From Vicinamibacteria bacterium (lineage in GTDB: Bacteria > Acidobacteriota > Vicinamibacteria > Vicinamibacterales > 2-12-FULL-66-21): DNA of 29,123 nt. This document shows, piece by piece, positions 2,260-29,121 of this stretch. The stretch covers positions 1 to 29,123 of the forward strand of contig JAICSD010000005.1 in NCBI GenBank assembly GCA_025937075.1, given 5' to 3'. Position 1 is the stretch's first letter. Each line of letters starts with the position of its first letter. The translations under genes and the position numbers were made by a program. The notes under the pieces were generated by a model. That model was not told where the DNA came from and made no database searches. It saw only the letters and a program-made list of their open reading frames with translations.

Positions 2260-4163
2260 CGCAGCCCGTGACGGCGCGGGACGTGGCCGCGCCCGCCATG
2301 TCCGTGCGGCCCGGACTTCTCCTGGCGTTCGTGCTGCTCTGCATCTACGGAGGCCTCGGCCTCACCGTTGACTTTCCGCGCGCGGCGCTCGGGATCCAGA
2401 GCGACGAGGCAACCTACTACATGATGGGCCACAGCCTCGCGGAGGACGGAGACCTCACATACCGCCGCGAGGACCTGATGCGCGTCTGGAAGGAGTTCTC
2501 CGGCGGACCTACCGGGCTGTTCCTCAAGCGCGGGCAGAAGGTACGAGACGCTCACCTCACGGCGCGCCCCCCCTTTTTCAAGCTGGACGGAGACCCCGAC
2601 CCGGTCCGGTCGAGGCTTTTCTACGGCAAATCGTTCGTGTATCCGCTCTTTGCCGCGCCCTTCGTCGCGATGTTCGGCACGAACGGCTTCCTCGTGCTGC
2701 ACGCGATTCTGCTCGCGCTGACGGCGCTCTGTGGCTATCTCTTCCTGCACGCGCGCGCGCCGGCAATGCCGTCAGCACTGCTGGCGGGAGCCTTTCTCCT
2801 GGTTTCGATCGTGCCGGTGTATTTCGTCTGGATCACGCCGGAGCTGTTCAATTTTTCCATTGGGCTCCTCGCGTATTTCTGCTGGCTGTACAAAGAGGTC
2901 GCCGATCCGGAGCGGTCGCCGCGCGGCACGCGGTGGCTCTTCACGCCGCGCAGCGACATCGCGGCCGCGGCGCTCCTCGGAATCGCGACCTTCTCGAAGC
3001 CCACCGCGATGGTGTTCGCGGTTCCGGTATTCCTGTGGTGGGGATGGCGCCGGCAGTGGGCGCGGCTGGTGGGAGTCGGGATCGTGTTCGTCCTCGTCAC
3101 CGGCGGACTCTTCGCGGCAAACCTCGCGATCACCGGCGATTGGAACTACCAGGGCGGCGATCGACGCACGTTCTACTGGGAGTTTCCGTTTCAGACGGAG
3201 ACGTCGGCATTCGATCGGATCGGAACGGCGATGGCGCGCGACGAGGGGCTCGGCGACATCATTTTCGATCCGCGCGTGTTCTGGAGAAACCTGCGGCACA
3301 ACCTCGCGTACTACTTCGTCGGCCGCTATGCCGGACTCGTCGCGTACTTCTTTCCCGCCGTGTTCGCGCTCGTGGCGTTCCTTGCGGCGCCACGCCGTCG
3401 TCCTTTCTGGCAGTGGCTGGTATTCGGGACCGCGATTGCGCAGATGCTCCTGTTCGTCATCTCGCTCCCGTACACGTGGCTCGGCGGGGGAGGGTCTGTC
3501 GGCAACCGCTACTTCATGAGCGCCTACGGCATCTTCCTGTTCTTGCTGCCGCCCGTCAGCAGCCTGGCGCTGGCGGGGGTGCCGTGGATTGCCGGAGCGC
3601 TGTTCACCGCGCCGATGGTCCTCAATCCGTTTGCGGCATCCTTTCGCCCCGGCGACAACGCGAAGCATGGACCGCTGCGGCTGCTTCCGCCGGAGCTGAC
3701 GCTCGTCAACGACTTGCCGGTGAACACCGACACGGCGAGGGTGCGGATCTGGTTCGGCGACGATCCGGAGCTGCACGATCCCGGATTTCAAATCTATTTC
3801 CTCGACGACAACGCGTATGGCCGCGAGGCGGATCGCACGTTCTGGGTAAAGGGAGAGTCGCGTGCGGAGTTCTTGATCAAGACGGACCGGCCGATGAAGC
3901 GCGCGGTGATGACGCTCATGTCAGGCCCGTTTCCGGCCGACGTGACGGCGTCGATCGACGGCCGTTCGCAGTCGGTTCATCTCGGAGCGGACGCATCACA
4001 GCAGGTGACGTTCGCGCTGCCGCCGGGGTTCTGGTATCAGGCACGCGCGTTCGTGTGGGTCGTCTCGATCTCGAGCAGCACGGGGTTCACGCCGATCTTC
4101 CATGGTGCGAACGACACACGGTTTCTCGGCGTGCGCGTCAAGCCGATGCTCGTCCTTCAATGA
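2256..4163 (+). CDS. Polytopic GT-C (ArnT/PMT/GT39-like) membrane glycosyltransferase
   Basis: A 635-residue integral membrane protein with about ten hydrophobic spans between residues 20 and 460 and a soluble beta-rich C-terminal domain (about 470-635). After the first span comes QSDEATYYMMGHSLAEDGDL (48-67). Asp50/Glu51 there match the acidic catalytic pair that GT-C enzymes carry in their first periplasmic loop. GNRYFMSAYG (416-425) is the later arginine motif typical of the group. Enzymes of this fold use polyprenyl-phosphate sugars as donors and act on the periplasmic face, so this protein may add a residue after export of the product of the neighbouring GT4 enzymes. GTG start in a GTGA overlap; ATGA overlap at its end. 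Donor and acceptor are not predictable. Confidence 0.8.
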   Translation: MTQPVTARDVAAPAMSVRPGLLLAFVLLCIYGGLGLTVDFPRAALGIQSDEATYYMMGHSLAEDGDLTYRREDLMRVWKEFSGGPTGLFLKRGQKVRDAHLTARPPFFKLDGDPDPVRSRLFYGKSFVYPLFAAPFVAMFGTNGFLVLHAILLALTALCGYLFLHARAPAMPSALLAGAFLLVSIVPVYFVWITPELFNFSIGLLAYFCWLYKEVADPERSPRGTRWLFTPRSDIAAAALLGIATFSKPTAMVFAVPVFLWWGWRRQWARLVGVGIVFVLVTGGLFAANLAITGDWNYQGGDRRTFYWEFPFQTETSAFDRIGTAMARDEGLGDIIFDPRVFWRNLRHNLAYYFVGRYAGLVAYFFPAVFALVAFLAAPRRRPFWQWLVFGTAIAQMLLFVISLPYTWLGGGGSVGNRYFMSAYGIFLFLLPPVSSLALAGVPWIAGALFTAPMVLNPFAASFRPGDNAKHGPLRLLPPELTLVNDLPVNTDTARVRIWFGDDPELHDPGFQIYFLDDNAYGREADRTFWVKGESRAEFLIKTDRPMKRAVMTLMSGPFPADVTASIDGRSQSVHLGADASQQVTFALPPGFWYQARAFVWVVSISSSTGFTPIFHGANDTRFLGVRVKPMLVLQ

Positions 4164-5197
4164 GGATCGCCATCGTCACCTCCAGCCCACCTATGGCGGA
4201 AGGTGGCCACATGGTGATCGCGCGCGAGCTGCGTCGCGCCATTCTCGAATTCGGTCACGACGCGCACATTGTCGTCACGCCGCAGAACCGGTTTGGACGC
4301 CAGGCCTCAGCCTACCTCGCGACGTGGCTGACGGACGTCGAGACGGCCGAAGGGCGTCCCATCGATCAAGTCATCAGCCTTCGGTATCCGAGCTATGCCG
4401 TCCGCCATCCGCGACACGTGTGCTGGCTGAATCACACGATGCGCGAGTACTACGACCTGTGGGACCGCTTCAGCAGCGGGCTGAGCCCGCGCGGCCGGCT
4501 CAAGGAAGGCGTGCGGCGCACGTTCATTCATGCTGCCGATCGGTACCTGCTCTCGCGAAATGTAAAGCGGCTTTTCGTCCAGTCGCGGACGATTCAGCAG
4601 CGGCTCTCGATCTGGCGGTCACTCGAGTCTTCCGTGCTCTATCCCCCGGCGCCGCAGCGGCCGTACCGCTGTGATGCGTACGGCGCCGAATTCCTGCTCG
4701 TGTCGCGGCTGACGCCGTTGAAGCGCGTCGATCTGTTCATCCGCGCCCTGGCGGCTCCGGATGGCGCGGGCCTGCGCGCGGTGATTGCGGGCGATGGCGA
4801 GGAGCGGGGCTCGCTCGAGCGGCTCGCAAGGGAGCTGAACGTTGCGGAGCGCGTGCGGTTCACGGGCCGGACGACGGACGCGGAGTTGTTGAATCTGCTG
4901 GCCACGTGCCGCGCGGTCGTTTTTCCGCCGTATCAGGAGGACTACGGGTTCGTCACGGTCGAAGCGTTCGCGTCGCGGAAGGCTGTCGTGACGTGTTCGG
5001 ATGCCGGCGGCCCGGCCGAGCTCGTGGATGATGGCGAGAACGGGTTCATCTGCCAGCCTTCCGCCGATGCGCTTGCTCGGAAGCTGCGCCGGCTTGCGGA
5101 CGACCAGCCGCTCGCGCAGCAGATGGGCGCGCGAGGGTTCGCAACGGCGGCAGCCCTGACGTGGCCTGAGACGGTGAAGCAGCTCGTTTTAGAATAA
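4160..5197 (+). CDS. GT-B glycosyltransferase, family 4 (last gene of the glycan operon)
   Basis: 345 residues. The N-terminus is MRIAIVTSSPPMAEGGHMVIA, the usual opening of GT4 enzymes with the glycine-rich loop that faces the acceptor. The donor half (about 175-345) contains LLVSRLTPLKRVDLFIRAL, VIAGDGEERGSLERLA and the EX7E motif (Glu260 in YQEDYGFVTVEAF, Glu268), then DAGGPAELVDDGENGF, a typical nucleotide-sugar binding loop. The ATG lies in an ATGA overlap with the preceding GT-C gene. The cluster seems to stop here: seven bases downstream begins a dispersed hairpin repeat, followed by the unrelated ttcA. No flippase or polymerase gene is visible nearby, so the export route must be encoded elsewhere. 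Confidence 0.87.
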   Translation: MRIAIVTSSPPMAEGGHMVIARELRRAILEFGHDAHIVVTPQNRFGRQASAYLATWLTDVETAEGRPIDQVISLRYPSYAVRHPRHVCWLNHTMREYYDLWDRFSSGLSPRGRLKEGVRRTFIHAADRYLLSRNVKRLFVQSRTIQQRLSIWRSLESSVLYPPAPQRPYRCDAYGAEFLLVSRLTPLKRVDLFIRALAAPDGAGLRAVIAGDGEERGSLERLARELNVAERVRFTGRTTDAELLNLLATCRAVVFPPYQEDYGFVTVEAFASRKAVVTCSDAGGPAELVDDGENGFICQPSADALARKLRRLADDQPLAQQMGARGFATAAALTWPETVKQLVLE

Positions 5198-5203
5198 GCA
5201 GGT

Positions 5204-5262
5204 GGCGGCCCTGAAAGGGCCGCCCAACGTACGTGGCGCCGGCCTTTTAGGCCCGCGATCAT
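5204..5262. repeat. Dispersed double-hairpin repeat, copy 1
   Basis: A perfect 8-bp stem (GGCGGCCC / GGGCCGCC) closes a TGAAA loop at 5204-5224. It is followed by the self-complementary ACGTACGT (5227-5234) and by a second, opposite-facing hairpin with a TTTTA loop (GCCGGCC TTTTA GGCCCGC). It fills the gap between the last glycosyltransferase and ttcA. The same layout recurs at 6991-7048 and, with a different centre, at 16105-16190. There is no U-run, so it is not a classical terminator by sequence. Confidence 0.85.
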
Positions 5263-5270
5263 CAACCGAT

Positions 5271-6104
5271 ATGCCATACGCCAGCGAGCTCGAGAGCCGC
5301 ATCGCCAAGAAGGTCACGAAAGCGATCACCGATTACCGCCTGATCGAAGACGGCGATCGCGTCATGGTGGGCCTCTCGGGCGGCAAGGACAGTTGGGCGC
5401 TGATCCAGATCCTCGACGTCCTCCAGCGGCGCGCGCCAATCGATTTCTCGATCGTTGCCGTCAACATCGATTCCGGATACGACGGGTACGAGCACGGGAA
5501 GATCACCGACACCTGCGCCGCGCGCGGCTGGGAATGCCACGTCGTGCACACGCGAATCGGTGAGACGATCGACGACATCCTGGACGAGAGTGCGACCCCT
5601 TGCTCTTTGTGCGCGCGTCTGCGTCGAGGCGCGCTCTATCGTCTCGCGAGGGCGGTGGGCGCCACGAAGATCGCGCTGGGGCACCACGCGGACGATTTCA
5701 TCGAGACGCTGCTGCTGAACCTGTTCTTTGCCGGAACGCTGAAGTCCATGCCTGCACGGCTCGTGTCCGACAACGGCGAGCATGTCGTGATCCGGCCGCT
5801 CGTGAACGTGCTCGAGTCGGAGGCGCGCGCGTACGCCCGGGCATCCGGCCTTCCGATCATCGGCTGCTGTTGTCCGGCATGCGGCGATCTGAGCCTCCAG
5901 CGTCAGCGGGTCAAGCGGTTGATCGCCGAGCTCGAAGTCGAGCATCCGGAGATCAAGAGCTCGATGCTCCGCGCGGTCGGGAATGTCGCCCCGCGCCACT
6001 TGCTGGATCGCCGCCTCAATCCGCTTCCGGAGCTCTATCAGGCGGCTGCCGCGCGCGACCTGACGGGCGCCGGACGAATTCTGCCCCTTACCCAAGTACG
6101 TTGA
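5271..6104 (+). CDS. ttcA: tRNA 2-thiocytidine synthetase TtcA
   Basis: TtcA-type ATP-dependent enzyme that thiolates cytidine 32 of certain tRNAs, using an iron-sulfur cluster. The 277 residues show the N-type PP-loop SGGKDS (36-41), the CxxC pair Cys111/Cys114 in PCSLCARLRRG, the signature GHHADDFIETLLLN (137-150) with AGTLKSMPA after it, and a further cysteine cluster at 199-204 (CCCPAC) that would supply the third cluster ligand. The ATG at 5271 gives the normal family N-terminus. An upstream extension of the frame would only translate the hairpin repeat. No strong ribosome-binding site is seen before the start. Closely related PP-loop thiolases exist, but the spacing of the motifs fits TtcA best. 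Confidence 0.88.
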   Translation: MPYASELESRIAKKVTKAITDYRLIEDGDRVMVGLSGGKDSWALIQILDVLQRRAPIDFSIVAVNIDSGYDGYEHGKITDTCAARGWECHVVHTRIGETIDDILDESATPCSLCARLRRGALYRLARAVGATKIALGHHADDFIETLLLNLFFAGTLKSMPARLVSDNGEHVVIRPLVNVLESEARAYARASGLPIIGCCCPACGDLSLQRQRVKRLIAELEVEHPEIKSSMLRAVGNVAPRHLLDRRLNPLPELYQAAAARDLTGAGRILPLTQVR

Positions 6105-6128
6105 ATGCGGACCGAGGATGTCCGCTGA

Positions 6129-6989
6129 ATGCGAGGTTCATCGCTGATGTACCGAACGTTGTGTGCCGTTCTGCTGACCTGCTTCGTCTCCACGCCGCTC
6201 TTCGCCCAGCAACGTCCCCTCGTCACGGAAGATCCCGAAACCATCGGCTCCGGCCTCGTGCTGATCGAAGGAGGGCTGGATTACGGCGACGACATCTTCT
6301 ATCCGGTCTCGGGCCTCCGCGGAGATCTGCTCAGAGTACCGACGCTGGGCGTGAGCTTCGGATTGAGCTCGATCGCCGAGCTGCAGCTCGACGGCGGCTT
6401 GTACAATCGCCTCACCGTCAAGTCGCGCCAACCGGCGCCTCTTTCAGGAATGCTGACCTTCACCGGCGATACGACCCACGACGTCGAGGACATCGTCGTG
6501 GCCACGAAGGTGCGGGTGGTGGCCGAAACCCCGCAGCATCCTGCATTCGGGCTGCGCTTTGCGACCAAGCTTCCCAATGCGGGCAACGAGAGCGGCCTTG
6601 GCCTCGACACGACCGATTTCTACTTCCAGGGACTCGTTGGGAAGACGGTACAGTCGATTCGCATCGTGGGGAACGTCGGCCTCGGGATCCTGGGCGATCC
6701 GACCCGCGGCGATCGGCAGAACGACGTGCTGTCGTACGGCGTCTCGCTCGCGCGCGCGGTGAAGCAGGGCGTGGAAATCGTCGGCGAGTTGAACGGCCGC
6801 GCGAACACGCGAAGCGGCGAGCCGCCGCCGGGAACGGAGAGTCGCGGCACGATGCGCTTCGGCGGCCGCATCACGCGACACACCGTCAGGGTCGACGGCG
6901 CTTTTCTTCTCGGCCTGACCTCGCGCGATCCGGGGTTTGGTTTCACCGTCGGGGCAACCTGGGTGTTCAGGGGGTTTACGGTTCCATAA
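6129..6989 (+). CDS. Secreted outer-membrane beta-barrel (Phenol_MetA_deg / transporter-like)
   Basis: A 286-residue protein with a signal peptide ending near TPLFAQQ (cleavage around residues 26-27), then RPLVTEDPETIGSG and a run of alternating hydrophobic and polar strands with glycines. It ends in an aromatic strand (GFGFTVGATWVFRGF), as expected for an outer-membrane barrel. This layout resembles the family called 'putative MetA-pathway of phenol degradation', whose members are mostly barrels of unknown substrate; nothing here supports a role in phenol breakdown. A second ATG at 6147 (MYRTLCAVLL) would give a more compact signal peptide and may be the true start. The stop codon lies one base before repeat copy 2. 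Confidence 0.7.
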   Translation: MRGSSLMYRTLCAVLLTCFVSTPLFAQQRPLVTEDPETIGSGLVLIEGGLDYGDDIFYPVSGLRGDLLRVPTLGVSFGLSSIAELQLDGGLYNRLTVKSRQPAPLSGMLTFTGDTTHDVEDIVVATKVRVVAETPQHPAFGLRFATKLPNAGNESGLGLDTTDFYFQGLVGKTVQSIRIVGNVGLGILGDPTRGDRQNDVLSYGVSLARAVKQGVEIVGELNGRANTRSGEPPPGTESRGTMRFGGRITRHTVRVDGAFLLGLTSRDPGFGFTVGATWVFRGFTVP

Positions 6990-6990
6990 T

Positions 6991-7048
6991 GGCGGCCATG
7001 AAAGGGCCGCACCACGTACGTGGCTGCCGGCCTTTCAGGCCCGCGATG
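6991..7048. repeat. Dispersed double-hairpin repeat, copy 2
   Basis: Same organisation as the copy at 5204: first hairpin GCGGCC/GGCCGC around ATGAAAG, then ACGTACGT (7014-7021), then an opposite hairpin with a TTTCA loop. The two copies are nearly identical in the centre (ACGTACGTGG) and in the tail (GGCCCGCGAT). It lies between the barrel gene and the start region of the BNR/VPS10 gene, whose ribosome-binding site follows within ten bases. Confidence 0.85.
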
Positions 7049-7062
7049 ACGAAGGAGGAGTG

Positions 7063-10365
<3,303 letters not shown>

Positions 10366-10367
10366 AC

Positions 10368-10387
10368 GCGGTCCTTTCAGGGCCGCC
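10368..10387. repeat. Dispersed hairpin repeat, copy 3 (single hairpin)
   Basis: GCGGTCC TTTCA GGGCCGC: a 7-bp stem with one G-T pair and the family loop in the TTTCA orientation. It is the only content of the 28-base gap between the convergent BNR/VPS10 and glpD genes, where it could end transcription from both sides. It lacks a U-run. Confidence 0.75.
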
Positions 10388-10393
10388 ACCGTC

Positions 10394-12001
10394 CTAGATC
10401 TGATAAAACGCATCGACCGCGGCGATCTCGTCATTGCGCCGCGTCTCGCTCCAACCCAACTCGTCGCCGCCGATCTGCGCCATGGCCACGAGCATCGGTC
10501 GTCCAGGATGACCCGCTGCGCCGAGGGTCGTACGCCGAATGGCGACATCGCCCAACGTGTACGCCATCTCGTGCCGAATGGCGTGAATCACTTCGGCGCC
10601 GACGTGGAGCTGCCCCGGCACGAGCGGCATACGCCAGTCGGTGTGCTCGGCCATCAGACGGATGATCGGCGCGCAGCGGTCGCCATAGAGCGACGTCAGG
10701 TGACGGATGATCGGCGGCGCCAGCTCGAGGCCCACGGCCCGCGCGGTCTCGATGGCCAGCGCTTCATGATCGGCGATGCCCGCGCCCGGCAGCATGGCGC
10801 GATCGGTACGCGAGCCGGGCACCCGCTTTCCCAGCCGCTGTGCCGCGTGTGACACGACGCGTGCGGCTACGCCGCGGGCAGTGGTGTACTTGACGCCAAT
10901 GACGCTCATCGCGCCGGCCGCATGGTCGAGAATCTGCGGCGCGGCGAGCAGGTCGGGCCGCCCGCCCTTGCCGCGCCGTGCGGGCACGACGCCGCGATGG
11001 ACCAGCGTGACGTCATCTCTGGTCAGATGCAGTGACGGAAACGCGGCGTTCGCATCGCCGATGAATGCGTCCACGTCGGCGCTGGTGATGGCCGTCTCGT
11101 CCGGGCCGCAGAACGTCCGCGACTGGCTCGTCCCAATCAGGGCGTGGCCATGCCACGGGACGAGCGTCAGCATGCGTCCGTCGCGGTCAGGCGCGGCAAG
11201 CGCGATGTCGCTGGCCGGCCTCGACGTCACCAGGTTCATCGCGCGAAGCAGCAGGACGTCCCGTTCCACGCCGAACATCCGCATCACGCGGCCGACGGAC
11301 GCGCCGGCTGCGTTGATCGTGAGGCGTGCCCGCACATCCAGCACGTCTCCCGTCAGCCGATCGTGCACGCGCATGCCGGTAATGCGCCCGCCGTCACGGA
11401 GCGCGCCCGTTGCCTCGACATAGTTCGCGATCACCGCGCCGTGCGCATCCGCGGCTTCGGCGAATGCGATGTTCAGCCGATCGCCTTCGACGATCTGATA
11501 GTCGTACCACATCGCGCCGCCGGTCAGGCCGTGCTGGCGGACGCCCGGAAAGAGCTTCAGGGTCGCGGCGCGCGACACGAGGCGGGGCGGAGGCAGGTGC
11601 AGCTCGGGCTCGAGGTGCTCGTTGCGGGCGCGTCCGAGCCATCGATCGAGCCGGAAGGCCGCCCTCAGCGCGAGCCGATTCCTGACGACCGACCGGTACG
11701 TGCCGACGATGAAGGGAAGTGGCCGGAGGAGGCGCGGGGCAATCCGCGCGAGCGCGCGGCGTTCGCGGATCGACTCGCGCGCGCGATCGATTCGTCCGGA
11801 CTGCAGCGATCGCAGCCCGCCGTGCGCCGTCTTCTGGTGATTGAACGACGTGCCGCTGCCGAAATCGTTCGCCTCCACGAGCGCGACGCTGAGGCCGCGG
11901 CTTGCGGCGTCGGCGGCAATGGCAAGGCCGTACACCCCGCCTCCGACGACGAGAGCGTCGAACTCACGTGCGGCAAGGGATGCGGCATCGCGCGCGCGCA
12001 T
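10394..12001 (-). CDS. glpD: Aerobic-type glycerol-3-phosphate dehydrogenase
   Basis: FAD-dependent, membrane-associated enzyme oxidising glycerol 3-phosphate to dihydroxyacetone phosphate with electrons passed to quinone. The 535 residues start with the dinucleotide-binding stretch FDALVVGGGVYG (14-25) and VALVEANDFGSGTSFN, then HGGLRSLQSG, the family motif around the flavin. Later blocks include WYDYQIVEGDRLN, VIGVKYTTARG and a C-terminal helical domain with HEMAYTLGDVAIRRTTLG, all diagnostic for GlpD/GlpA. It stands alone: no glycerol kinase or facilitator gene is next to it. It is divergent from the methyltransferase gene with only 29 bases between the start codons. No Shine-Dalgarno sequence is seen, but TATAAG lies 11 bases before the start. 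Confidence 0.92.
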   Translation of the reverse strand: MRARDAASLAAREFDALVVGGGVYGLAIAADAASRGLSVALVEANDFGSGTSFNHQKTAHGGLRSLQSGRIDRARESIRERRALARIAPRLLRPLPFIVGTYRSVVRNRLALRAAFRLDRWLGRARNEHLEPELHLPPPRLVSRAATLKLFPGVRQHGLTGGAMWYDYQIVEGDRLNIAFAEAADAHGAVIANYVEATGALRDGGRITGMRVHDRLTGDVLDVRARLTINAAGASVGRVMRMFGVERDVLLLRAMNLVTSRPASDIALAAPDRDGRMLTLVPWHGHALIGTSQSRTFCGPDETAITSADVDAFIGDANAAFPSLHLTRDDVTLVHRGVVPARRGKGGRPDLLAAPQILDHAAGAMSVIGVKYTTARGVAARVVSHAAQRLGKRVPGSRTDRAMLPGAGIADHEALAIETARAVGLELAPPIIRHLTSLYGDRCAPIIRLMAEHTDWRMPLVPGQLHVGAEVIHAIRHEMAYTLGDVAIRRTTLGAAGHPGRPMLVAMAQIGGDELGWSETRRNDEIAAVDAFYQI

Positions 12002-12012
12002 GGGAGGATCAT

Positions 12013-12021
12013 CTTATAGTA
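12013..12021. promoter_or_regulatory. Overlapping divergent -10 boxes between glpD and the methyltransferase
   Basis: Plus strand: TATAGT at 12015-12020, five of six matches to TATAAT, 10 bases before the GTG at 12031. Minus strand: TATAAG (complement of 12013-12018), also five of six, 11 bases before the glpD ATG. The two boxes share the same base pairs in a 29-base gap. No good -35 is visible on either side. Confidence 0.4.
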
Positions 12022-12030
12022 GAGGCACTC

Positions 12031-12798
12031 GTGAGCCCCGCTTCGTCCAATGCTGCCGTCCGCGACTATTGGGACCGCCACATCCACGATCTCGACATCA
12101 CCACGCATCCCGTCGGTTCTCCCGGCTTCTTCGCCGATCTGGACCAGTATCATTTCGAGAAGCTGCATCATCTGCCGCGGCTGATCGACTTCGATGGCTA
12201 CCGCGGCAAGCGCGTGCTGGAGGTTGGGTGCGGCGCGGGCACGGATCTCGTCAGGTTCGCGAAGGGAGGGGCTCGTGTCACGGGCGTGGATATCTCGCCG
12301 TCCGCCATCGCGCTCGCGCGCGAGAATTTCCGCCAGCAGGGCCTCGAGGCGGATCTCCGCGAAGCCGACGGCGAACAGCTTCCGTTCGCGGACAACTCCT
12401 TCGATTTCGTCTACGCGCACGGCGTCGTGCAATACACGACCGGGGATCGCGCCCTCGTCGACGAATGCCGGAGAGTACTGGTTCCCGGCGGCACCGCCGT
12501 GTTGCAGGTGTACAACCGCGTCTCGTGGCTGAATGCGCTCTCGAAGCTGATGAAGGTGCCGCTCGAGCACGAAGACGCGCCGGTGCTACGCAAGTACAGC
12601 CCGAAGGAATTCCGCGCGCTGCTGACCGGCTTCAGCGATGTTCGCATCGTCGAGGAGCGTTTTCCGGTCAAGTCCCGGCTCCACGGCGGGTGGAAGGGGA
12701 CGCTGTTCAACACATTGTTCGTGGGTACGTTCAACGCGCTGCCGCGCACCTGGGTGCGCCGCTTCGGCTGGCACCTGCTTGCGTTCGGTCGCAAATGA
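12031..12798 (+). CDS. Class I SAM-dependent methyltransferase
   Basis: 255 residues. Motif I is VLEVGCGAGTDLVRFA (62-77). VTGVDISPSAIALAREN (83-99) supplies the acidic residue that holds the SAM ribose. EADGEQLPFADNSFDFVYAHGVV and VLVPGGTAVLQVYN are motifs II-III of the Methyltransf_11/25 type. The C-terminal 80 residues (LLTGFSDVRIVEERFPVKSR onward) are basic and aromatic and may touch the substrate or the membrane. I chose GTG 12031, which has AGAGG six bases upstream and matches the length of the fold; the frame is open further upstream but lies inside glpD. It overlaps dapF by ATGA, so the two are cotranslated. The substrate is unknown. Confidence 0.82.
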   Translation: MSPASSNAAVRDYWDRHIHDLDITTHPVGSPGFFADLDQYHFEKLHHLPRLIDFDGYRGKRVLEVGCGAGTDLVRFAKGGARVTGVDISPSAIALARENFRQQGLEADLREADGEQLPFADNSFDFVYAHGVVQYTTGDRALVDECRRVLVPGGTAVLQVYNRVSWLNALSKLMKVPLEHEDAPVLRKYSPKEFRALLTGFSDVRIVEERFPVKSRLHGGWKGTLFNTLFVGTFNALPRTWVRRFGWHLLAFGRK

Positions 12799-13607
12799 CA
12801 ATCGTCAAGGCCCACGCGCTCGGCAACGATTTCCTGCTGCTCGAAGAGCGCGAAGCGCGATCAGGTATCGATCGCGGAGCACTCGCGCGCCGCCTGTGCA
12901 ATCGGCATCGTGGCGTGGGCGCGGACGGCCTGATCATCTTCAGCCAGGCCGCACCGGACGAACGTTCTGCCGCTCGTCCCGCGCGCGCGCGGATGCATCT
13001 GCTCAACGCCGACGGAAGCCCATCGGAGATTTCGGGCAATGGCGTGCGATGTCTGGCGGCATGGATCGCGCGCGTGCTGGGACTCGAGCCAGGCGCCACA
13101 ATCGACGTCGAGACTGACGCAGGGATCAAGCTCCTCGAGCTGTGCGGGTCGGAGGGAACGCGCCAGATCTTCCGCGCGGCAATGGGACCTCCCGAGCAAG
13201 TCGAACGCCGTTCGCTGGACGTGAATGGCGCCGCCACCGAGGTCGTGACGCTCCGCGTCGGCAACCCTCAATGCGTTGTCCTCGGCGACGCGACGGAGGA
13301 GCGTCTGTACGGGCTCGCGTCCAGGCTCGCCGTCCATTCGGCGTTTCCGGCCGGCACGAACGTGGAGCTTGCCGCCGTCGAAGCGCCGGACCGCGTGAGG
13401 ATTCTGATCTGGGAGCGCGGCGTCGGGCCGACGGAAGCGTCTGGTACGGGTGCCTGCGCGGCGGCCGTGGCAGCGATTGCGTACGGCGGGGCATCGCGCG
13501 ACGTCGCCGTGCACTCGCCGGGTGGCGTGCAGCGCGTCGAGTGGCGTGACGACGGCCTGTACTTGACCGGCTGGGCGGAGATCGTGCTGGAGGGAACCGT
13601 GTTCTAG
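12795..13607 (+). CDS. dapF: Diaminopimelate epimerase
   Basis: Converts LL- to meso-diaminopimelate, the last step before its use in peptidoglycan and for lysine. The 270 residues form the two-domain DapF fold: KAHALGNDFLLLE (5-17), RHRGVGADGLI (38-47), then the first catalytic cysteine Cys86 in ISGNGVRC and the second, Cys221, in EASGTGACAAAVAA. GNPQCVV (156-162) and GTNVELA (187-193) are further family blocks. The ATG lies in an ATGA overlap with the methyltransferase gene, an unusual partner. Its stop overlaps that of the opposite-strand lipoprotein gene by four bases. Confidence 0.95.
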   Translation: MTIVKAHALGNDFLLLEEREARSGIDRGALARRLCNRHRGVGADGLIIFSQAAPDERSAARPARARMHLLNADGSPSEISGNGVRCLAAWIARVLGLEPGATIDVETDAGIKLLELCGSEGTRQIFRAAMGPPEQVERRSLDVNGAATEVVTLRVGNPQCVVLGDATEERLYGLASRLAVHSAFPAGTNVELAAVEAPDRVRILIWERGVGPTEASGTGACAAAVAAIAYGGASRDVAVHSPGGVQRVEWRDDGLYLTGWAEIVLEGTVF

Positions 13608-14176
13608 CGTCTCCTGCGCGTTTTCAGGCGCTGCAATGCCGCATCGACCTGCGTGCCCGCGGCATCCATCTTCTCTTTCATTCCCGACAGATCAGCAGTG
13701 ACGGTCTGATAGTCGCCGCCGGCAAAAGCTGTGCGCGCTTTTTGCAAAGCCGTCGTCGCCTGAGCGAGCGTTGCCGAGGGGTCGCGCAGCTCGCGTGGAG
13801 GCACGCGGGCCCTTTCAGCCGCCTCGAGACTTGTCTCCAGTTGGTGTGTGCGATGGGCGAAGTCCACGAGGGCGGCTTCGGCGCCGGCTTGCGCCCGCGC
13901 TCTGCCGTCGGCGGCGGCGCGCGCGGCGTCCTGCGCGCGCTCGCGTGCGTCAATCGCGTAGCTGAGCGCCTGGCGATAGTCGCGCTGCGTGACCGCGTCG
14001 TGCGCTTTCTGCAACGCGCCAGAGGCGGCGGTGTACTCGTCTACGGCGTACTTGTCAGCCCCCGCGGCGCGCGCGGCGTCCAGCGCGCCCTGGGCCTGAT
14101 CGATTTCTTTCTGGGGAGGTTCGGAGCAACCTGCGGCGAACAGCAGCAGGAGTGCTATCACCGGCAGGCGACGCAT
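13604..14176 (-). CDS. DUF4398-like lipoprotein
   Basis: 190 residues beginning MRRLPVIALLLLFAAGCSEP. This is a lipoprotein signal peptide with lipobox AAGC, giving a lipidated Cys17. The rest is almost all alpha-helical and rich in Ala, Arg, Asp and Gln, with repeating helices that each contain an 'ALQKA' type motif (EYTAASGALQKAHDAVTQRDYRQALSYA-like, then ATTALQKARTAFAGGDYQ). This pattern resembles DUF4398 envelope proteins; the tail KTRRRR is strongly basic. The start at 14176 is fixed by the signal peptide. An open frame continues upstream but lies antisense to radC. It is convergent with dapF and divergent from radC (29 bases between starts). Role unknown, probably structural in the envelope. 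Confidence 0.8.
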   Translation of the reverse strand: MRRLPVIALLLLFAAGCSEPPQKEIDQAQGALDAARAAGADKYAVDEYTAASGALQKAHDAVTQRDYRQALSYAIDARERAQDAARAAADGRARAQAGAEAALVDFAHRTHQLETSLEAAERARVPPRELRDPSATLAQATTALQKARTAFAGGDYQTVTADLSGMKEKMDAAGTQVDAALQRLKTRRRR

Positions 14177-14187
14177 TTCGCAAAAAG

Positions 14188-14193
14188 TATAAC
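14188..14193 (+). promoter_or_regulatory. Possible -10 box for radC
   Basis: TATAAC, five of six matches to TATAAT, 12 bases before the radC ATG at 14206. A second similar hexamer, TATGAT (14197-14202), is too close to the start to serve. No clear -35. Confidence 0.3.
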
Positions 14194-14205
14194 AGGTATG
14201 ATGAG

Positions 14206-14919
14206 ATGAAGTCCGTTGCGCTGCACGATCGCCCGCGGGAAAAACTCGAGCGCGTCGGTGCGGGCGGCCTCGGCGACAACGAGCTGCTCGCGATCGTGCT
14301 CGGGCACGGCGCGCCGCGATCCGGGGCCCTCGAGCTCGCGAACGCGGTACTTGCCGCCGTCGGCGGATTGCACGGCCTCGCGCGCGCATCGCTCGATCAC
14401 CTGCAGCACGTACCGGGGATCGGCGGGGCACGCGCGGCGCAGCTGATTGCCGCCATCGAGGCGGGCCGCCGCACGTTGCTGCGCGGTCCGCACGATCGCG
14501 TGCAGATCATGTCACCGCGTGACTCGGCCGACTTGCTGCTGCCGCTGTACGGCAGCCGCGAAGTGGAGCACTTCGGCGTCGTGCTCCTGGACACGAAACA
14601 CTTCGTGCTGCGATCGAAGGTGCTCTCAGTCGGGACGCTCGACGCGAGCATCGTGCATCCGCGCGACGTCTTTCGCGAGGCAGCCCGGGCGGGCGCGGCG
14701 GCGGTCGTGCTGTTTCACAACCACCCGTCCGGCGACCCGACGCCCAGCCCGGACGATGTGGCGCTGACGCGGCGGCTCGTCGTGGCTGGCGAGCTGATGG
14801 GCATCTACGTGCTCGATCACGTCGTCGTCGCCGACACGCGGTTCTACACGATGAATGGCGCCGGCGACCTCGATCCGCGCAAGCTGCCAAGAGGCGATTG
14901 GAGAATGCTGTTGCCGTGA
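14206..14919 (+). CDS. radC: RadC-family JAMM domain protein
   Basis: 237 residues. The N-terminal UPF0758 domain has LHDRPREKLERVG and GLGDNELLAIVLGHG (6-35), then a helix-hairpin-helix VPGIGGARAAQL (69-80). The C-terminal JAMM/MPN+ metal site is His171, His173 and Asp184 in HNHPSGDPTPSPDD, with Glu121 as candidate acid. The family is widespread and was once linked to DNA repair; its molecular activity is still not settled. The ATG at 14206 starts the conserved domain and sits outside the divergent lipoprotein gene; an upstream in-frame codon at 14152 would overlap that gene. The end overlaps larC by GTGA. Confidence 0.9.
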   Translation: MKSVALHDRPREKLERVGAGGLGDNELLAIVLGHGAPRSGALELANAVLAAVGGLHGLARASLDHLQHVPGIGGARAAQLIAAIEAGRRTLLRGPHDRVQIMSPRDSADLLLPLYGSREVEHFGVVLLDTKHFVLRSKVLSVGTLDASIVHPRDVFREAARAGAAAVVLFHNHPSGDPTPSPDDVALTRRLVVAGELMGIYVLDHVVVADTRFYTMNGAGDLDPRKLPRGDWRMLLP

Positions 14920-16115
14920 GCGTGGGCGTGGGCGTGTTCTATATCGATTGTTTTTCTGGCGCCGCGGGGGACATGATCCTTGGCGCGCTGATCGATCTGG
15001 GGTTGCCGATCGATGCGCTGAAGAGTGCGCTCGGGAGCCTTGCGATCGAGTACGGCGACATCACGGCGGAACGCGTGCTCCGCGCCGGGGTGACCGCCAC
15101 CAAGTTCCGCCTCATCGAGCACGCCGCGCCCGCACCGGCACCCGCGCACGCTCACCACCATTTGAAGCACATCGTGACGGCGATTCGCCGATCCTCGCTG
15201 TCGCCGGAAGGCCACGATCGCGCCGTGCACCTGTTCGAACGGCTTGCCGAGGCCGAAGCGGCCATTCACAGCACGCCCATGGAGCGCGTGCACCTCCACG
15301 AAGTGGGCGCAGTCGATTCCATCATCGACATCATCGGCTGCGTGTACGGCTTCGAATGGTTCGGGATCGACGACATCGTCGCATCGCCCTTGAATGTCGG
15401 CGGTGGCACCGTCCGCTGCGCGCATGGCGTATTTCCCGTGCCTGCGCCCGCGACGGCGCGGCTGTTGGCGGGTGTGCCGGTGTACGGGAACGGCACCACC
15501 GAGCTGGTGACGCCGACGGGCGCGCTGATCGTGACGTCCTACGCGCGCGAATTCGGTCCGCTGCCCGCCATGTCCATCGAGAAGATTGGATATGGCGCTG
15601 GCGATCGGGATCCGAAGGAGACGCCGAACGTCCTCAGGATCCTGCGCGGCGAACGCACCAGTGCCTCATCGCACGAACGAGTCGTCAAGCTCGAATGCGA
15701 AATAGATGACATGAACCCGCAGTTGTTCGGCCCGCTGATGGACAGTCTCCTGGCGGCCGGCGCGCTGGACGTGTTCTATACGCCTGTGCAGATGAAGAAG
15801 AACCGGCCGGGTACGCTCGTGACGGTCCTTGGACGTCCAGATCTCCGGCAGTCGCTCACGGACGTCCTCTTCCGGTCTTCGACGACGATTGGCGTGCGAT
15901 ATGAGGAGATGTCGCGCGCGTGTCTCGATCGGACGATGGAGTCGATTGAGACGCCGTTCGGAGCAGTCCGCTTCAAGGTGGCGCGGCGGGATGGAGAGGA
16001 GCTGAATGCAGCTCCGGAGTTCGATGACTGCGCGCGGCTCGCCGCCGAACACAAGGTTCCGATCAAGACGATTCACGCCGCAGCCATCAAGGCCTGGCTC
16101 GATCGGCGGCCCTGA
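14916..16115 (+). CDS. larC: Nickel-pincer cofactor nickel-insertion protein LarC
   Basis: LarC loads nickel into pyridinium-3,5-bisthiocarboxylic acid mononucleotide, the cofactor of lactate racemase and related enzymes. The 399 residues show the start YIDCFSGAAGDMILGALIDLG, the block VHLHEVGAVDSIIDIIGC (125-142), and SPLNVGGGTVRCAHGVFPVP. A histidine cluster (HAHHHLKH, 78-85) is a likely metal-binding stretch. The C-terminal half begins near CEIDDMNPQ. I prefer GTG 14916, which overlaps the radC stop as GTGA, over a TTG 18 bases earlier. In Lactobacillus plantarum larC is read through a programmed frameshift; here it is one continuous frame. Neither LarB, LarE nor a LarA-type enzyme is encoded in the window. 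The last codons and the stop lie inside repeat copy 4. Confidence 0.9.
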   Translation: MSVGVGVFYIDCFSGAAGDMILGALIDLGLPIDALKSALGSLAIEYGDITAERVLRAGVTATKFRLIEHAAPAPAPAHAHHHLKHIVTAIRRSSLSPEGHDRAVHLFERLAEAEAAIHSTPMERVHLHEVGAVDSIIDIIGCVYGFEWFGIDDIVASPLNVGGGTVRCAHGVFPVPAPATARLLAGVPVYGNGTTELVTPTGALIVTSYAREFGPLPAMSIEKIGYGAGDRDPKETPNVLRILRGERTSASSHERVVKLECEIDDMNPQLFGPLMDSLLAAGALDVFYTPVQMKKNRPGTLVTVLGRPDLRQSLTDVLFRSSTTIGVRYEEMSRACLDRTMESIETPFGAVRFKVARRDGEELNAAPEFDDCARLAAEHKVPIKTIHAAAIKAWLDRRP

Positions 16116-16190
16116 AAGGGCCGCCCCACGACGGTCGCGCTCGCGCCCCCACGATCGCGCCGATCGTGGCGCGGCCCTTTCAGGGCCGCG
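16105..16190. repeat. Dispersed double-hairpin repeat, copy 4, with its own centre
   Basis: The first hairpin (16105-16125) is identical to that of copy 1: stem GGCGGCCC/GGGCCGCC, loop TGAAA. The TGA in its loop (16113-16115) is the larC stop codon. In the middle is a separate perfect inverted repeat, ACGATCG CGC CGATCGT (16151-16167). The closing hairpin is GCGGCCC TTTCA GGGCCGC (16171-16189). All of the gap before the metG promoter is thus made of secondary-structure elements. Confidence 0.85.
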
Positions 16191-16199
16191 TACGTCGCA

Positions 16200-16208
16200 T
16201 GGCATAAT
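16200..16208 (+). promoter_or_regulatory. Possible extended -10 promoter of metG, implying a leaderless start
   Basis: TGG followed by CATAAT (16203-16208) is an extended -10 form (TGn plus five of six matches). Seven bases separate it from the metG ATG at 16216, so transcription would begin at or next to the start codon. No Shine-Dalgarno sequence is present. Confidence 0.45.
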
Positions 16209-16215
16209 CGATCGG

Positions 16216-18150
16216 ATGTCCCGGTTCTATCTGACGACGGCTATCGACTATGTGAACAGCCGTCCCCACCTCGGCACGGCCTACGAGAAGATCACGGCCG
16301 ATGTCATCGCGCGCTACAAGCGGCTCGCGGGGTGCGACACGTTGTTCGTCATGGGGAACGACGAGCACTCGCAGAACGTGTATCGGCGTGCGCGCGAAGA
16401 GGGGCTCGATCCGCTCGCGTACTGCGATCAGATGGAGCGCGAGTTCCGGAGCGTCTGGGATCAGCTCGACGTCTCGTACGACGATTTCATCCGCACGACG
16501 CAGCCGCGCCATCGGACGGCTGTCCAGGAGCTGGTGCGCCGGATCGACGCGAACGGCGACGTCTACGAGGGCTTCTACGAAGGCTGGTACTGCGTCGGCT
16601 GCGAGGCGTTCAAGCAGGACAAGGACCTCGTCGACGGCAAGTGCCCGCTGCATGGGACGACGCCCGACTGGATCAAGGAGAAGAATTACTTCTTCCGGCT
16701 GTCCGCGTATCGCGACCGGCTGCTGGCGCATTTCGACGCGCACCCTGCCTTTACCGTGCCGGACGTCCGGCGCAACGAGATCCTGCGGCTGCTCGAAGCG
16801 GGGCTCGAGGACATCTCGATCAGCCGCGCGGGACAGGCCTGGGGCATTCCGCTGCCGCAGGATCCCGGGAGCGTGACGTACGTCTGGTTCGACGCGCTGA
16901 TCAACTATGCGTCCGCGGCTGGATTCGGTACCGATGCGGCGCTGTTCGAGCGCTGGTGGCCTGCCGATCTCCACGTGATCGGCAAGGACATCACGCGCTT
17001 TCACTGCGTGATCTGGCCCGCGATGCTGATGAGCGCCGGGCTGCCGCTGCCGACGCAGGTCTTCGGGCATGGGTTCATGACCGTCGACGGGCAGCGCATG
17101 AGCAAAACGCTCGGCAATGTCGTCGATCCCGTTGATGCGGCGGCGCGATTCGGCGTCGATCCGGTGCGGCTGTATCTCGTCAAGGAGATCACGTTCGGCG
17201 CGGACGGCGATTTTTCCTGGACGCGCTTCCATGACCGCTACAACGCGGATCTCGCGAACAATCTCGGGAACCTCGTGAGCCGCATCGCCGCCATGAGCGA
17301 TCGCTATCGCGCTGGCCGCGTGCGTCCGTCAGGCACGGCCGGCCGTCTGGCAGGCGTCGCGGAGAGCGCGGTGGCCGACTATCGCGCGCAGATGGATCGG
17401 TTCGCGCTCGAGGCCGGCGCCGCCGCCGCGTTCCGCATCGTCGACGCGGCAAACGAATACATCACTGAAACCGAACCATGGGCGCTGGCGCGGAACGAGG
17501 CGCAGGCGGATCGCTTGACGCAGGTACTGTTCGATGTCGCGGAGGCGGTCCGCATCGCGGCGCTGCTGCTGCAGCCGATCATGCCGCGATCGGCGGCCGA
17601 GATCCTGCGCCGCATGGGCGACGCCGCGTCGGCGGACAGACCGTCGCTCGAGAACGCCGGCTGGCAGAACAGCGGTGAACGTACGATTCAGAAGGGCGAT
17701 GCGATGTGGCCTCGCGCCGATTCGGGCACGAGCCAGCCGGTCGCCGCACAGAGGAGCGTGATCGTGACGGAAGAGCCAAAGACCACTCCAGCGCCGGCGC
17801 CTGCGGCTGCACCACCCGAGGACGGGCGCATCACGATAGACGAGTTCATGAAGATCGACCTGCGCGTCGCGAAGGTCCTGGCGGCGGAGAAGGTCCCGAA
17901 CTCGCGGAAGCTGCTGAAGCTGCAGATTGACGTCGGGACGGAGCAGCGGACGCTCGTCGCTGGCATCGCGGAGGCGTACGAGCCCGAGCAGCTCGTCGGA
18001 CGGACGGTCGGGATCGTGTTCAATCTCAAGCCCGCAAAGCTGATGGGCATCGAATCGAACGGGATGGTGCTCGCCGCGAGTCCGGACGGCGGCAAGCCGA
18101 CGCTCGTCACGTTCGACGGTGATGTGCCGCCCGGGGCGCGGATTCGATGA
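16216..18150 (+). CDS. metG: Methionyl-tRNA synthetase with C-terminal tRNA-binding domain
   Basis: Charges initiator and elongator tRNA-Met. 644 residues. The class I signature appears as RPHLGTAY (16-23, HIGH-like) and the KMSKS equivalent as QRMSKTLGN (around 293-301). The connective peptide carries one zinc knuckle: Cys126 and Cys129 in YCVGCEAF, Cys143 and His146 in GKCPLHG. The anticodon-binding helical domain spans about 330-500. It is joined by a Pro/Ala-rich linker (APAPAAAPPEDG) to a Trbp111-like OB-fold domain (about 538-644, IDEFMKIDLRVAKVLAAEKV, then VAGIAEAYEPEQLVG and NGMVLAAS). The start at 16216 gives the standard N-terminus; the frame upstream runs through the hairpin repeat and into larC. 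Confidence 0.96.
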   Translation: MSRFYLTTAIDYVNSRPHLGTAYEKITADVIARYKRLAGCDTLFVMGNDEHSQNVYRRAREEGLDPLAYCDQMEREFRSVWDQLDVSYDDFIRTTQPRHRTAVQELVRRIDANGDVYEGFYEGWYCVGCEAFKQDKDLVDGKCPLHGTTPDWIKEKNYFFRLSAYRDRLLAHFDAHPAFTVPDVRRNEILRLLEAGLEDISISRAGQAWGIPLPQDPGSVTYVWFDALINYASAAGFGTDAALFERWWPADLHVIGKDITRFHCVIWPAMLMSAGLPLPTQVFGHGFMTVDGQRMSKTLGNVVDPVDAAARFGVDPVRLYLVKEITFGADGDFSWTRFHDRYNADLANNLGNLVSRIAAMSDRYRAGRVRPSGTAGRLAGVAESAVADYRAQMDRFALEAGAAAAFRIVDAANEYITETEPWALARNEAQADRLTQVLFDVAEAVRIAALLLQPIMPRSAAEILRRMGDAASADRPSLENAGWQNSGERTIQKGDAMWPRADSGTSQPVAAQRSVIVTEEPKTTPAPAPAAAPPEDGRITIDEFMKIDLRVAKVLAAEKVPNSRKLLKLQIDVGTEQRTLVAGIAEAYEPEQLVGRTVGIVFNLKPAKLMGIESNGMVLAASPDGGKPTLVTFDGDVPPGARIR

Positions 18151-18155
18151 TGGAA

Positions 18156-18175
18156 GGCGGCCCTGAAAGGCCGCC
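18156..18175. repeat. Dispersed hairpin repeat, copy 5 (single hairpin)
   Basis: Stem GGCGGCC/GGCCGCC (7 bp) with a CTGAAA loop, followed by CCAC as in copies 2 and 4. It begins five bases after the metG stop and lies 20 bases before tatD. One G is missing from the 3' arm relative to copies 1 and 4. Confidence 0.8.
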
Positions 18176-18195
18176 CCACATCAGCGATCATTCGA

Positions 18196-18990
18196 ATGAT
18201 CGACTCGCATTGCCATCTGGCGGACGAGGCATTTGCATCCGACCTCGATGCCGTCATCGACCGTGCAAAAGGCGCCGGCCTGTCATCGGCGCTTTGCATC
18301 ATCGCTGCAGGAGATGACGCCGAGGCCCGGCGTGCTGCAGACGTCCGGGGACGGTGGAGTACCGTGCACTTCGCAACCGGCGTGCACCCCCACAATGCGG
18401 GGACGTTCACGGAGGGCAGAGCCGCGGCGGCGGCGACGCGAGAGTGGGTGACGCGGTTCGAGGCGTGCGCGGCTGGCGAGATCGGTCTCGACTACCACTA
18501 CGATTTCTCCAAGCCGCCCATCCAGCAGGAAGTCTTCGCGGCCCAGATCGAGCTGGCGCTCGAGTTGCGCGTGCCCGTCATCATCCACACACGCGAGGCC
18601 ACGGACGACACGTTTGGCATCCTTCGCGAATCGGGCCGCGGCACCCTGCGGGGCGTGTTCCACTGCTTCACAGGCGATCTGAACATGGCGCGCCGTGCGC
18701 TCGATCTTGGATTCGACATCTCGCTCGCGGGCATCGTCACGTTTCCCAAGGCTGAGGCGCTCCGCGATGCGGCGCGCTTCGTGCCGTCGGATCGTCTGCT
18801 GATCGAAACGGACAGCCCGTATCTCGCGCCCGTTCCGCATAGAGGGAAGCGCAACGAGCCGGCGTTCGTCGCGCGCGTGCTGGACGAGCTGGCGTCGCTT
18901 CGGGGCGAACCTCGCGACGCGCTCGAGCGCATCACGGACGCGAATTTCGCGCGGTTGTTCCGGCCAACTCGCGCGTCCGCAAGCGCTTAG
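18196..18990 (+). CDS. tatD: TatD-family metal-dependent DNase
   Basis: 264-residue TIM-barrel hydrolase of the TatD family, whose members act as 3'-5' exonucleases on DNA. Metal ligands are visible in the expected order: His5 and His7 in DSHCH, Glu95 in GEIGLDYHYD, His131 in VIIHTREA, His156 in HCFTG and Asp206 in ETDSPYLAPVPHRGKRNEP. Length is normal for the family. It follows metG, a common pairing in bacterial genomes, separated only by repeat copy 5. The last residues (RASASA) extend slightly past the fold. Confidence 0.93.
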   Translation: MIDSHCHLADEAFASDLDAVIDRAKGAGLSSALCIIAAGDDAEARRAADVRGRWSTVHFATGVHPHNAGTFTEGRAAAAATREWVTRFEACAAGEIGLDYHYDFSKPPIQQEVFAAQIELALELRVPVIIHTREATDDTFGILRESGRGTLRGVFHCFTGDLNMARRALDLGFDISLAGIVTFPKAEALRDAARFVPSDRLLIETDSPYLAPVPHRGKRNEPAFVARVLDELASLRGEPRDALERITDANFARLFRPTRASASA

Positions 18991-25180: not shown

Positions 25181-25601
25181 CCACCGTAGAGAGCCGTAAG
25201 CCGAATTCTGTTCCCTTCGACTCGGCGTTGCGGCCTCGCTCGGGGTGACGACCATTCCTCTAGCCCCGTCATTGCTGACGGGATCCAGCAGCCTACCCGG
25301 AGGCTTCGGACGGGCCGTCCGATTGCCCCCCTATTTGGCCTTGCTCCGTGCGGGGTTTTGCCTGCCACTCGTGTTGCCACGAGCGCGGTGCGCTCTTACC
25401 GCACCTTTTCACCCTTACTCGCCTCCGCCCTCAGCCTTTGAGCCGACAGCGAAGGCGGGCGGTGTATTTTCTGTGCCACTTTCCTTCGGGTTGCCCCGAC
25501 CGGGCGTTACCCGGCGCACTGCCCTGCGGAGTTCGGACTTTCCTCCCCTCGACCCGGCCGAAGGCCGACTCGAGAGACGGTCGTCTGGCTCTCTCCGGTG
25601 G
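25181..25601 (-). ncRNA. rnpB: RNase P RNA, bacterial type A
   Basis: Catalytic RNA that matures tRNA 5' ends. On the minus strand the conserved blocks come in order: GAGGAAAGTCCGAACTCC (25545-25528), GTGCCACAGAAAATACACCG (25479-25460), AAGGTGCGGTAAGAGCGCACC, GGAGCAAGGCCAAATAGGG (25347-25329), GGGTAGGCTGCTGGATCCC, and the 3' block GAATTCGGCTTAC (25208-25196). The ends are set by helix P1: 25587-25601 pairs with 25181-25195 in 14 of 15 positions. About 421 bases is a normal length. In the loop equivalent to L15 the tRNA-contact sequence reads GGC (25352-25362) where GGU is usual. Confidence 0.95.
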
Positions 25602-29024: not shown

Positions 29025-29121
29025 TCCCTGATCCCGAATCCCTCATCTCGAATCGCTAATCGCCGATCCCCAATCCCCGATCCGAACCCCGAACCCCGCA
29101 CCCGCACCCGCACCCGCACGC
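28978..29121. repeat. Heptanucleotide tandem array running to the window edge
   Basis: From 28978 to 29082 the sequence divides into fifteen 7-base units that all end in ATC: CCTCATC, GCTAATC, CCTGATC, CCGAATC, CCTCATC, TCGAATC and so on. Five units form a 35-base higher-order repeat present twice without a mismatch (28985-29019, 29020-29054) and begun a third time. After 29082 the units become CGAACCC, CGAACCC, CGCACCC and then hexamers GCACCC. The first third lies inside the aminotransferase frame. Confidence 0.9.

Follow-up and report, generated by a model that had tools for sequence, protein, structure and literature searches.

What are the short hairpins that recur at gene borders in a 29,123-nucleotide stretch of Vicinamibacteria DNA (contig JAICSD010000005.1; the whole stretch is called the window here), and do they move or do they serve the transcripts whose ends they flank? 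A first-pass annotation, made from the letters of the sequence, had described a hairpin family at five loci and likened it to repetitive extragenic palindromes (REPs) and bacterial interspersed mosaic elements (BIMEs), the kind mobilized by REP-associated tyrosine transposases (RAYTs). The copy number of the hairpins in relatives, the covariation of their stems, the RAYT genes and the differing occupancy of orthologous gaps all support that comparison. We conclude, with a probability of about 0.87, that the hairpins are units and doublets (BIME-like; REPINs, for REP doublets forming hairpins) of a GT[AG]G-tagged REP family, that is, non-autonomous mobile elements of an Acidobacteria order.

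On the strand that carries the TTTCA loop, the unit in the window reads GTGG-N-GCGGCCC-TTTCA-GGGCCGC, and across relatives it generalizes to GTRG-N-GCNNNNC-TTTCA-GNNNNGC. A covariance model run over the whole window returned eight hairpins at the five loci (E value at most 0.012), followed by the next match at 0.43; it was built on 58 distinct copies, two of which (16106 and 16166) come from the window and match by construction. Six of the window hairpins combine a TGAAA/TTTCA loop with at least six of seven stem pairs, whereas 200 order-1 Markov simulations yielded 0.055 such sites on average and never more than 2. The hairpins are arranged as three doublets and two singles, and the two inverted units at short distance that characterize a REPIN or BIME are found at three of the five loci. 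Two doublets are centered on ACGTACGT, as the annotation had stated; this center is the junction of two inward-facing tags (CCAC or CCAA, then GTGG), and doublets with their tags inside are what PMC3733652 calls TT dimers. The stem and loop that it took to be shared by all copies hold overall, except that the stem is one base short at 18157 and mismatched at 6992, 5233 and 7020, and that the loop is TTTTA at 5233 and TTTCA/TGAAA in the other seven hairpins. What it overlooked is the tag itself: six of the eight hairpins have GTGG, one has GTTG, and one has no tag left.

The tag is also kept among relatives. The 3' flank (C/G)C(T/C)AC, which on the opposite strand is GT[AG]G at the hairpin foot, was read by eye in 10 of 11 relatives sampled; the foot deviates in G035 (three copies) and in some G018 copies. 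GT[AG]G REPs are recognized by this tetranucleotide at 0–2 nt from the hairpin foot, where it lies in the present units as well, and judged by sequence the layout of the unit is that of the GT[AG]G REPs in PMC3733652 and PMC6006769. The same foot bears on whether the hairpins might instead be CGTC-type REPs, a kind without a known dedicated transposase. Their 5-nt loop and CCA-like tail do match the description of CGTC repeats in PMC3733652, and CGTC directly follows units 10367 and 16166. CGTC is, however, not a conserved unpaired end, whereas GT[AG]G is conserved outside G035, and the RAYT genes described below are flanked by units of this kind; we give a CGTC assignment next to no credence.

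Stem covariation, which the annotation had proposed to look for, is indeed present. The search left the four inner stem pairs free, making their complementarity informative, whereas the three pairs fixed by the pattern say nothing. Among 55 distinct 24-mers, the four free pairs are Watson-Crick in 37, 38, 47 and 48 cases, compared with maxima of 34, 31, 36 and 37 in 500 shuffles. Cells changed on both sides number 53 versus 18.4 in shuffles (58 distinct rows; none of 500 shuffles reaches 53), and slid structures give 1 to 22, all of these being numbers that related rows inflate. Eleven of 69 distinct 24-mers (phylum-search loci L286-L295) were dropped before covariation analysis and model building. 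Compensatory change is also visible in stems specific to single genomes: GGTCCGC in G018, GGGTCGC in G038 and GGGCTGC in G012. The stem is kept by compensatory change, and a subfamily frequent in G029 retains a tandem G.A mismatch within it (GCGAGCC/GGCGAGC).

To find relatives, we scanned genome contigs with the MetG-like protein (61 loci); the closest are Acidobacteria. The order-wide search then covered the 162 genomes in the order of one relative (G001), which is most likely Vicinamibacterales, a name that we inferred. With up to two mismatches, GCGGCCCTGAAAGGGCCGC matches 70 of these genomes, against 0 to 4 hits per genome for a reversed-pattern control, and the richest are G039 (165), G029 (108), G038 (58), G037 (43), G096 (31) and G041 (28). 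When tag and loop were fixed and the four stem pairs left free, 27 of the 162 genomes matched (reversed-pattern control: 5 hits in all 162). A high copy number, one of the tests that the annotation had named, is found in these relatives, with 414 copies in G029, 266 in G039, 176 in G042, 83 in G041 and 79 in G038; lower counts follow in G040 (31), G037 (30), G036 (24), G111 (19), G016 (18), G018 (11) and others (at most 6). A draw of 396 genomes from the phylum gave 22 with matches (control: 14 hits in the 396). Thirteen of the 22 had not been part of the order search; apart from G402, with 8 hits, each of them has one or two, no more than the control level. Within this sampling, then, the family is almost limited to part of one order. 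Ten close relatives chosen by MetG gave 17 matches versus 22 for the reversed pattern, no excess over the control.

Transposase genes of the expected type occur in the same order. The Pfam family PF01797 is present in 104 of the 162 genomes, and the NCBIfam model for REP-associated tyrosine transposases, NF047646, scores above its cut-off in 59. When nine proteins were checked singly against this cut-off of 80, six passed at 100 to 125 bits and three failed at 59 to 71 bits; the six have HxH and Y...NP in common, which we take to be the catalytic motifs of RAYT proteins. In G029 (locus L210), a RAYT open reading frame (ORF; 10003-10494) has 13 units in the same orientation upstream and four inverted units downstream, all with a TTTCA loop and all but one with GTAG, and one extra unit in the opposite orientation at 9384. 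The 13 upstream units form an array (L210:9466-9969) with a mostly 37-nt period and a shared spacer around GGATATCACCG. This REPtron, a RAYT gene with its flanking units, was missed by scans for unbroken stems because its stem has the tandem G.A mismatch, and was found by a scan for tag and loop. In G096 (L220), the RAYT gene (2613-3104) has TTTCA units with the foot GCGG on both sides, one of which overlaps the predicted gene start. At least two GT[AG]G-tagged hairpins are found at 13 of 30 other RAYT loci, versus 4 of 105 control chunks (3.4 kb, from relatives), and the loops at these loci are mostly TTCA, TTTA or TTTC. Among the window ORFs scanned there is no RAYT.

By analogy with known TnpA-REP and IS200/IS605 systems, from which we derive both the action of the RAYT and its mode, a TnpA-REP/RAYT protein of the HUH-tyrosine type encoded elsewhere in the genome would most likely recognize, on single-stranded DNA, the hairpin and its GTRG foot, cut there and paste copies at new sites, acting in trans. 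Copies would then persist where they are least harmful, at gene borders, and the window-type GTGG copies of one relative (G029) would also persist inside genes, in reading phases free of stop codons.

The annotation had further proposed a comparison of orthologous gaps with and without the element, and gap occupancy does differ. The larC–metG gap spans 100 nt in the window versus -4 to 57 nt in 13 of 15 relatives (those measurable), and the glycosyltransferase–TtcA gap spans 64 nt versus -10 to 8 nt in seven of eight relatives by the same measure, the likely ATG at this gap in the window lying 9 nt further on. For metG–tatD, 18 of 23 relatives have -4 to 81 nt (at most 13 nt in 13 of them), and the other five have more than 1.4 kb of other DNA. 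None of the orthologous gaps measured carries this element, so the window copies look like additions, and other REPs have struck the same gaps in other species: one of the 13 relatives (L017) has a REP of another stem type in its larC–metG gap. Tagged or REP-like hairpins with other stems that fill the same gaps elsewhere include GTAGGGCGCGTCC..GGACCCGCC and CGCCGGACC TGAA GGTCCGGCG (L017 larC–metG, L047 p6129–GlpD). Over the 28 relatives' loci, the covariance model gave no more than five matches, all weak (E 0.04 to 0.9), and the L017 gap holds one of these. Three matches with E of 0.04 to 0.55 fall within the regions that match LarC and MetG in relatives (L001:584-636, L005:10684-10712, L003:3255-3277) and may be intragenic REPs.

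Such variation speaks to the idea that selection keeps the hairpins at fixed positions as binding sites or structural DNA, for gyrase or nucleoid proteins. REPs have been described as binding sites for integration host factor (IHF), DNA polymerase I and gyrase (PMC6006769), but element positions differ between the relatives compared and the copy number of the pattern ranges from 0 to 414 within one order, and we regard this role as highly improbable.

More can be said for hairpins that act mainly as RNA, as bidirectional terminators or mRNA-end stabilizers kept for that function, an alternative that the annotation itself had raised. All five window loci lie at gene borders, as it had claimed, and all are at or just past stop codons: four of the five start 1–7 nt past one, one locus sits between convergent genes, and at 16106 the TGA of the loop doubles as the stop codon of the larC ORF (14898-16115; nickel insertion). 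The element strands fold well as DNA (z -2.6 to -7.9), an RNA-end role has been reported for REPs (PMC6006769), and in unselected G042 sequence seven of eight gene-border clusters touch a 3' end. Yet none of the three terminator-like sites in 5000-18500 overlaps an element (shuffles: 6.1 sites), and no T run follows the stem. Ten border clusters in unselected G029 sequence display no 3' preference (four at a 3' end only, five at a 5' end only, one at both), the orthologous larC–metG gaps of relatives mostly lack such a hairpin, and copies are also found inside genes. An RNA role is distinctly unlikely as the general explanation, although single copies may serve in this way.

Several observations weigh against a mobile REP family. 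Movement is inferred, not directly observed, and the evidence from copy number and RAYT genes comes from relatives rather than from the window's own genome. The G029 REPtron belongs to a GTAG/GCGAG subfamily, not to the GTGG/GCGGCCC subfamily of the window, and the units of the G096 REPtron have the foot GCGG, not GT[AG]G. The RAYT gene that the first-pass annotation had proposed to look for is found flanked by TTTCA units in two relatives, but neither REPtron is exactly of the window's subfamily. G012 and G036 carry copies with no RAYT found, for which genome incompleteness may be the explanation, and many RAYT-bearing genomes have no TTTCA units. Two of five covariation measures are weak: pairs with a double change (4 versus 3.9, reached by 462 of 500 shuffles) and, to a lesser degree, further pair types (13 versus 9.9, reached by 7 of 500). 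Finally, the metG–tatD gap of the window, at 45 nt, is unremarkable in size.

The label 'intergenic' given to the hairpins by the annotation does not hold generally, since window-type copies in G029 are often inside genes; the 24-mer at 16166..16189 is identical to many intragenic copies there. Our test for intragenic position applies a codon model to both flanks and demands an open frame. It replaced two crude gene predictors, which placed 29 and 24 of 67 G029 copies inside ORFs; the first of them makes ORFs too long at their upstream end, also in the window itself. In unselected sequence, 1 of 12 clusters is intragenic in G029 (400 kb, all GTAG) and 1 of 9 in G042. In 19 G029 stretches selected around exact window-type matches or the RAYT gene, 14 of 39 clusters are intragenic (with one more at an edge), including 11 of the 27 GTGG clusters of this selected sample. 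Random positions are intragenic in 47 to 56% of cases; because the fractions for the elements fall below this, coding sequence appears to be avoided overall, and least by GTGG units. The contrast between GTGG and GTAG units is weak (11/28 versus 5/32, with one G042 cluster counted among the GTGG ones, p = 0.047; p = 0.48 within the same stretches).

Seventeen G029 ORFs have a unit in their core. All ten that were scanned contain Pfam domains, and in at least eight of the ten the domains flank the unit on both sides or span it. The unit falls inside the domain region in a galactokinase, an S9 peptidase, a molybdopterin oxidoreductase, a protein of xanthine-dehydrogenase type, PriA, a 3-hydroxyacyl-CoA dehydrogenase, UvrD and Lhr. 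Sorted by phase, the 21 copies in intragenic clusters encode VARPFQGR (7), inverted GPERAAP (6), ...LSG... (7) and ALKGPPH (1); the phase that meets a TGA cannot appear among them because the test demands an open frame.

An interval that is only three residues long in P0003-P0008 comprises 43 in the G029 galactokinase (P0001), to which these proteins are 91–92% (P0003-P0006) or 79–81% (P0007 and P0008) identical, and at the level of sequence this difference can be read as direct evidence of insertion. P0009, P0010, P0011 and P0014 have related but different inserts at the same place. REP-type peptides occupy the interval in 20 of the 120 best homologues by a pattern that was widened after inspection of the data, and in 16 of 120 by a narrower one. 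On a FastTree phylogeny of the rest of the protein (91 rows: 20 with the insert, 71 without), presence and absence change at least 13 times, a count that pools gains and losses, has no shuffled control and leaves out 29 of the 120 proteins, whose inserts are of other or intermediate kinds. In PriA of G029 (P0241), a VARPFQGR insert stands at a place that different short inserts occupy in relatives. In P0242-P0249, the same loop holds short peptides that differ between species (for example AERSPKRLA and RPEPVEGR) and look like translated palindromes of other families. One might go further and regard the GTGG subfamily as a mobile peptide-insertion REPIN, open in five of six phases and read as tolerated peptides (VARPFQGR, GPERAAP, ALKGPPH), that would spread through genes and gaps and repeatedly lengthen the same loops, as in galactokinase, in many Acidobacteria; we consider this extension possible but doubtful.

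GTAG REPs and REPINs with RAYTs (PMC3733652, PMC6006769) have in common with the present family the GT[AG]G foot, a short GC-rich stem, a short loop, doublets and many dispersed copies. Further traits described for GTAG REPs in PMC3733652 recur here: RAYT genes with inverted units on both sides, stop codons that the element itself provides, and some copies in genes, including DNA repair genes. Unlike the GTAG REPs covered there, the present family has a loop that hardly departs from TTTCA and is carried by an Acidobacteria order; further differences are the inward tags of the window doublets and the tandem G.A mismatch in the stem of one G029 subfamily. In the text of PMC3733652, GTAG repeats are listed for Proteobacteria, Cyanobacteria, Chloroflexi and the Planctomycetes-Verrucomicrobia-Chlamydiae (PVC) group, and Acidobacteria come up in connection with a different kind of tyrosine transposase. 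The paper also reports REPs inside genes of O. terrae and R. conorii (RPE-4, RPE-6), likewise palindromic units in protein genes, with doublets encoding 20 to 30 residues and with repair genes, such as that of a UvrD-type helicase, among the targets. The R. conorii units are of CGTC type, whereas ours are of GT[AG]G type, and the present family differs from both cases by a single galactokinase loop with REP-type peptides in many homologues (the 20 of 120 above). Class 3 TnpA-Y1 REP-like elements are likewise found in Acidobacteria, such as Solibacter usitatus, with about 600 hairpins in its genome and HUH transposase genes flanked by hairpins (PMC6006769), but their foot is CnGA, in place of which our units have GT[AG]G.

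GT[AG]G REPs, REPtrons, doublets, element-derived stop codons and intragenic REPs are already in print, to go by PMC3733652, while the family itself appears to be new: literature searches covering open-licence PMC papers found no account of it. With this family, the range of RAYT-linked GT[AG]G REPs comes to include an order of Acidobacteria, most of them uncultured, in which a genome can have up to hundreds of copies. Its natural series of empty sites, single units, doublets and repeated insertion at one protein loop bears on how a palindromic mobile element survives in reading frames, and lets one ask whether the added peptides are of any benefit to the host proteins or are no more than tolerated.

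Table 1. REP units in the window, with scores from the covariance model.
Coordinates	Strand	Arrangement	Tag	Loop and stem	Score	Position and remarks
5205..5228	-	left half of doublet 1	GTTG (decayed)	loop TTTCA	32.4 bits, E 1.2e-4	7 nt past stop of ORF 2933-5197
5233..5256	+	right half of doublet 1 (tags inside)	GTGG	loop TTTTA, one stem mismatch	28.8 bits	
6992..7015	-	left half of doublet 2	GTGG	loop TTTCA, loop-adjacent mismatch	22.0 bits	2 nt past stop of ORF 6129-6989
7020..7044	+	right half of doublet 2	GTGG	loop TTTCA, one stem mismatch	25.8 bits	
10367..10386	+	single	lost		22.8 bits	between convergent ORF ends (BNR/sortilin-like; FAD-dependent DAO type); model positions 5-24
16106..16129	-	left half of doublet 3	GTGG		39.6 bits	in training set
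16166..16189	+	right half of doublet 3	GTGG		40.2 bits	in training set
18157..18179	-	single	GTGG	stem arm one base short	25.9 bits	between MetG-like and TatD-like ORFs

The genes around these units follow the order glycosyltransferase, TtcA-like, p6129, GlpD-like, DapF-like, LarC, MetG, TatD and IspB-like (names beyond Pfam matches are our own labels), an arrangement that most of the 28 loci compared from relatives, often incomplete ones, largely retain. Between p6129 and the GlpD-like gene, the window has a BNR/sortilin-like gene (7063-10365) that is bracketed by the REPs at 6992-7044 and 10367-10386, and the two neighbors overlap or lie at most 92 nt apart in 11 of 13 relatives; the BNR/sortilin-like gene may have entered at, or between, REPs. 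LarC of the window ends in LDRRP, with its stop codon within the element loop. Among 15 close homologues, one (P0122, 85% identical) also ends in LDRRP and the rest in LDRVR, LDRMR, LDSVR, LDGVR, VDRVR or RRV, which suggests that P0122 may have the same insertion. An Rfam scan of the window returned RNase P only, a bacterial class A RNA gene at 25182-25596 on the minus strand (282.7 bits). Close to the window's end, at 28969-29082, short imperfect repeats resembling TCCCTGATCCCGAATCCC follow one another in a run.

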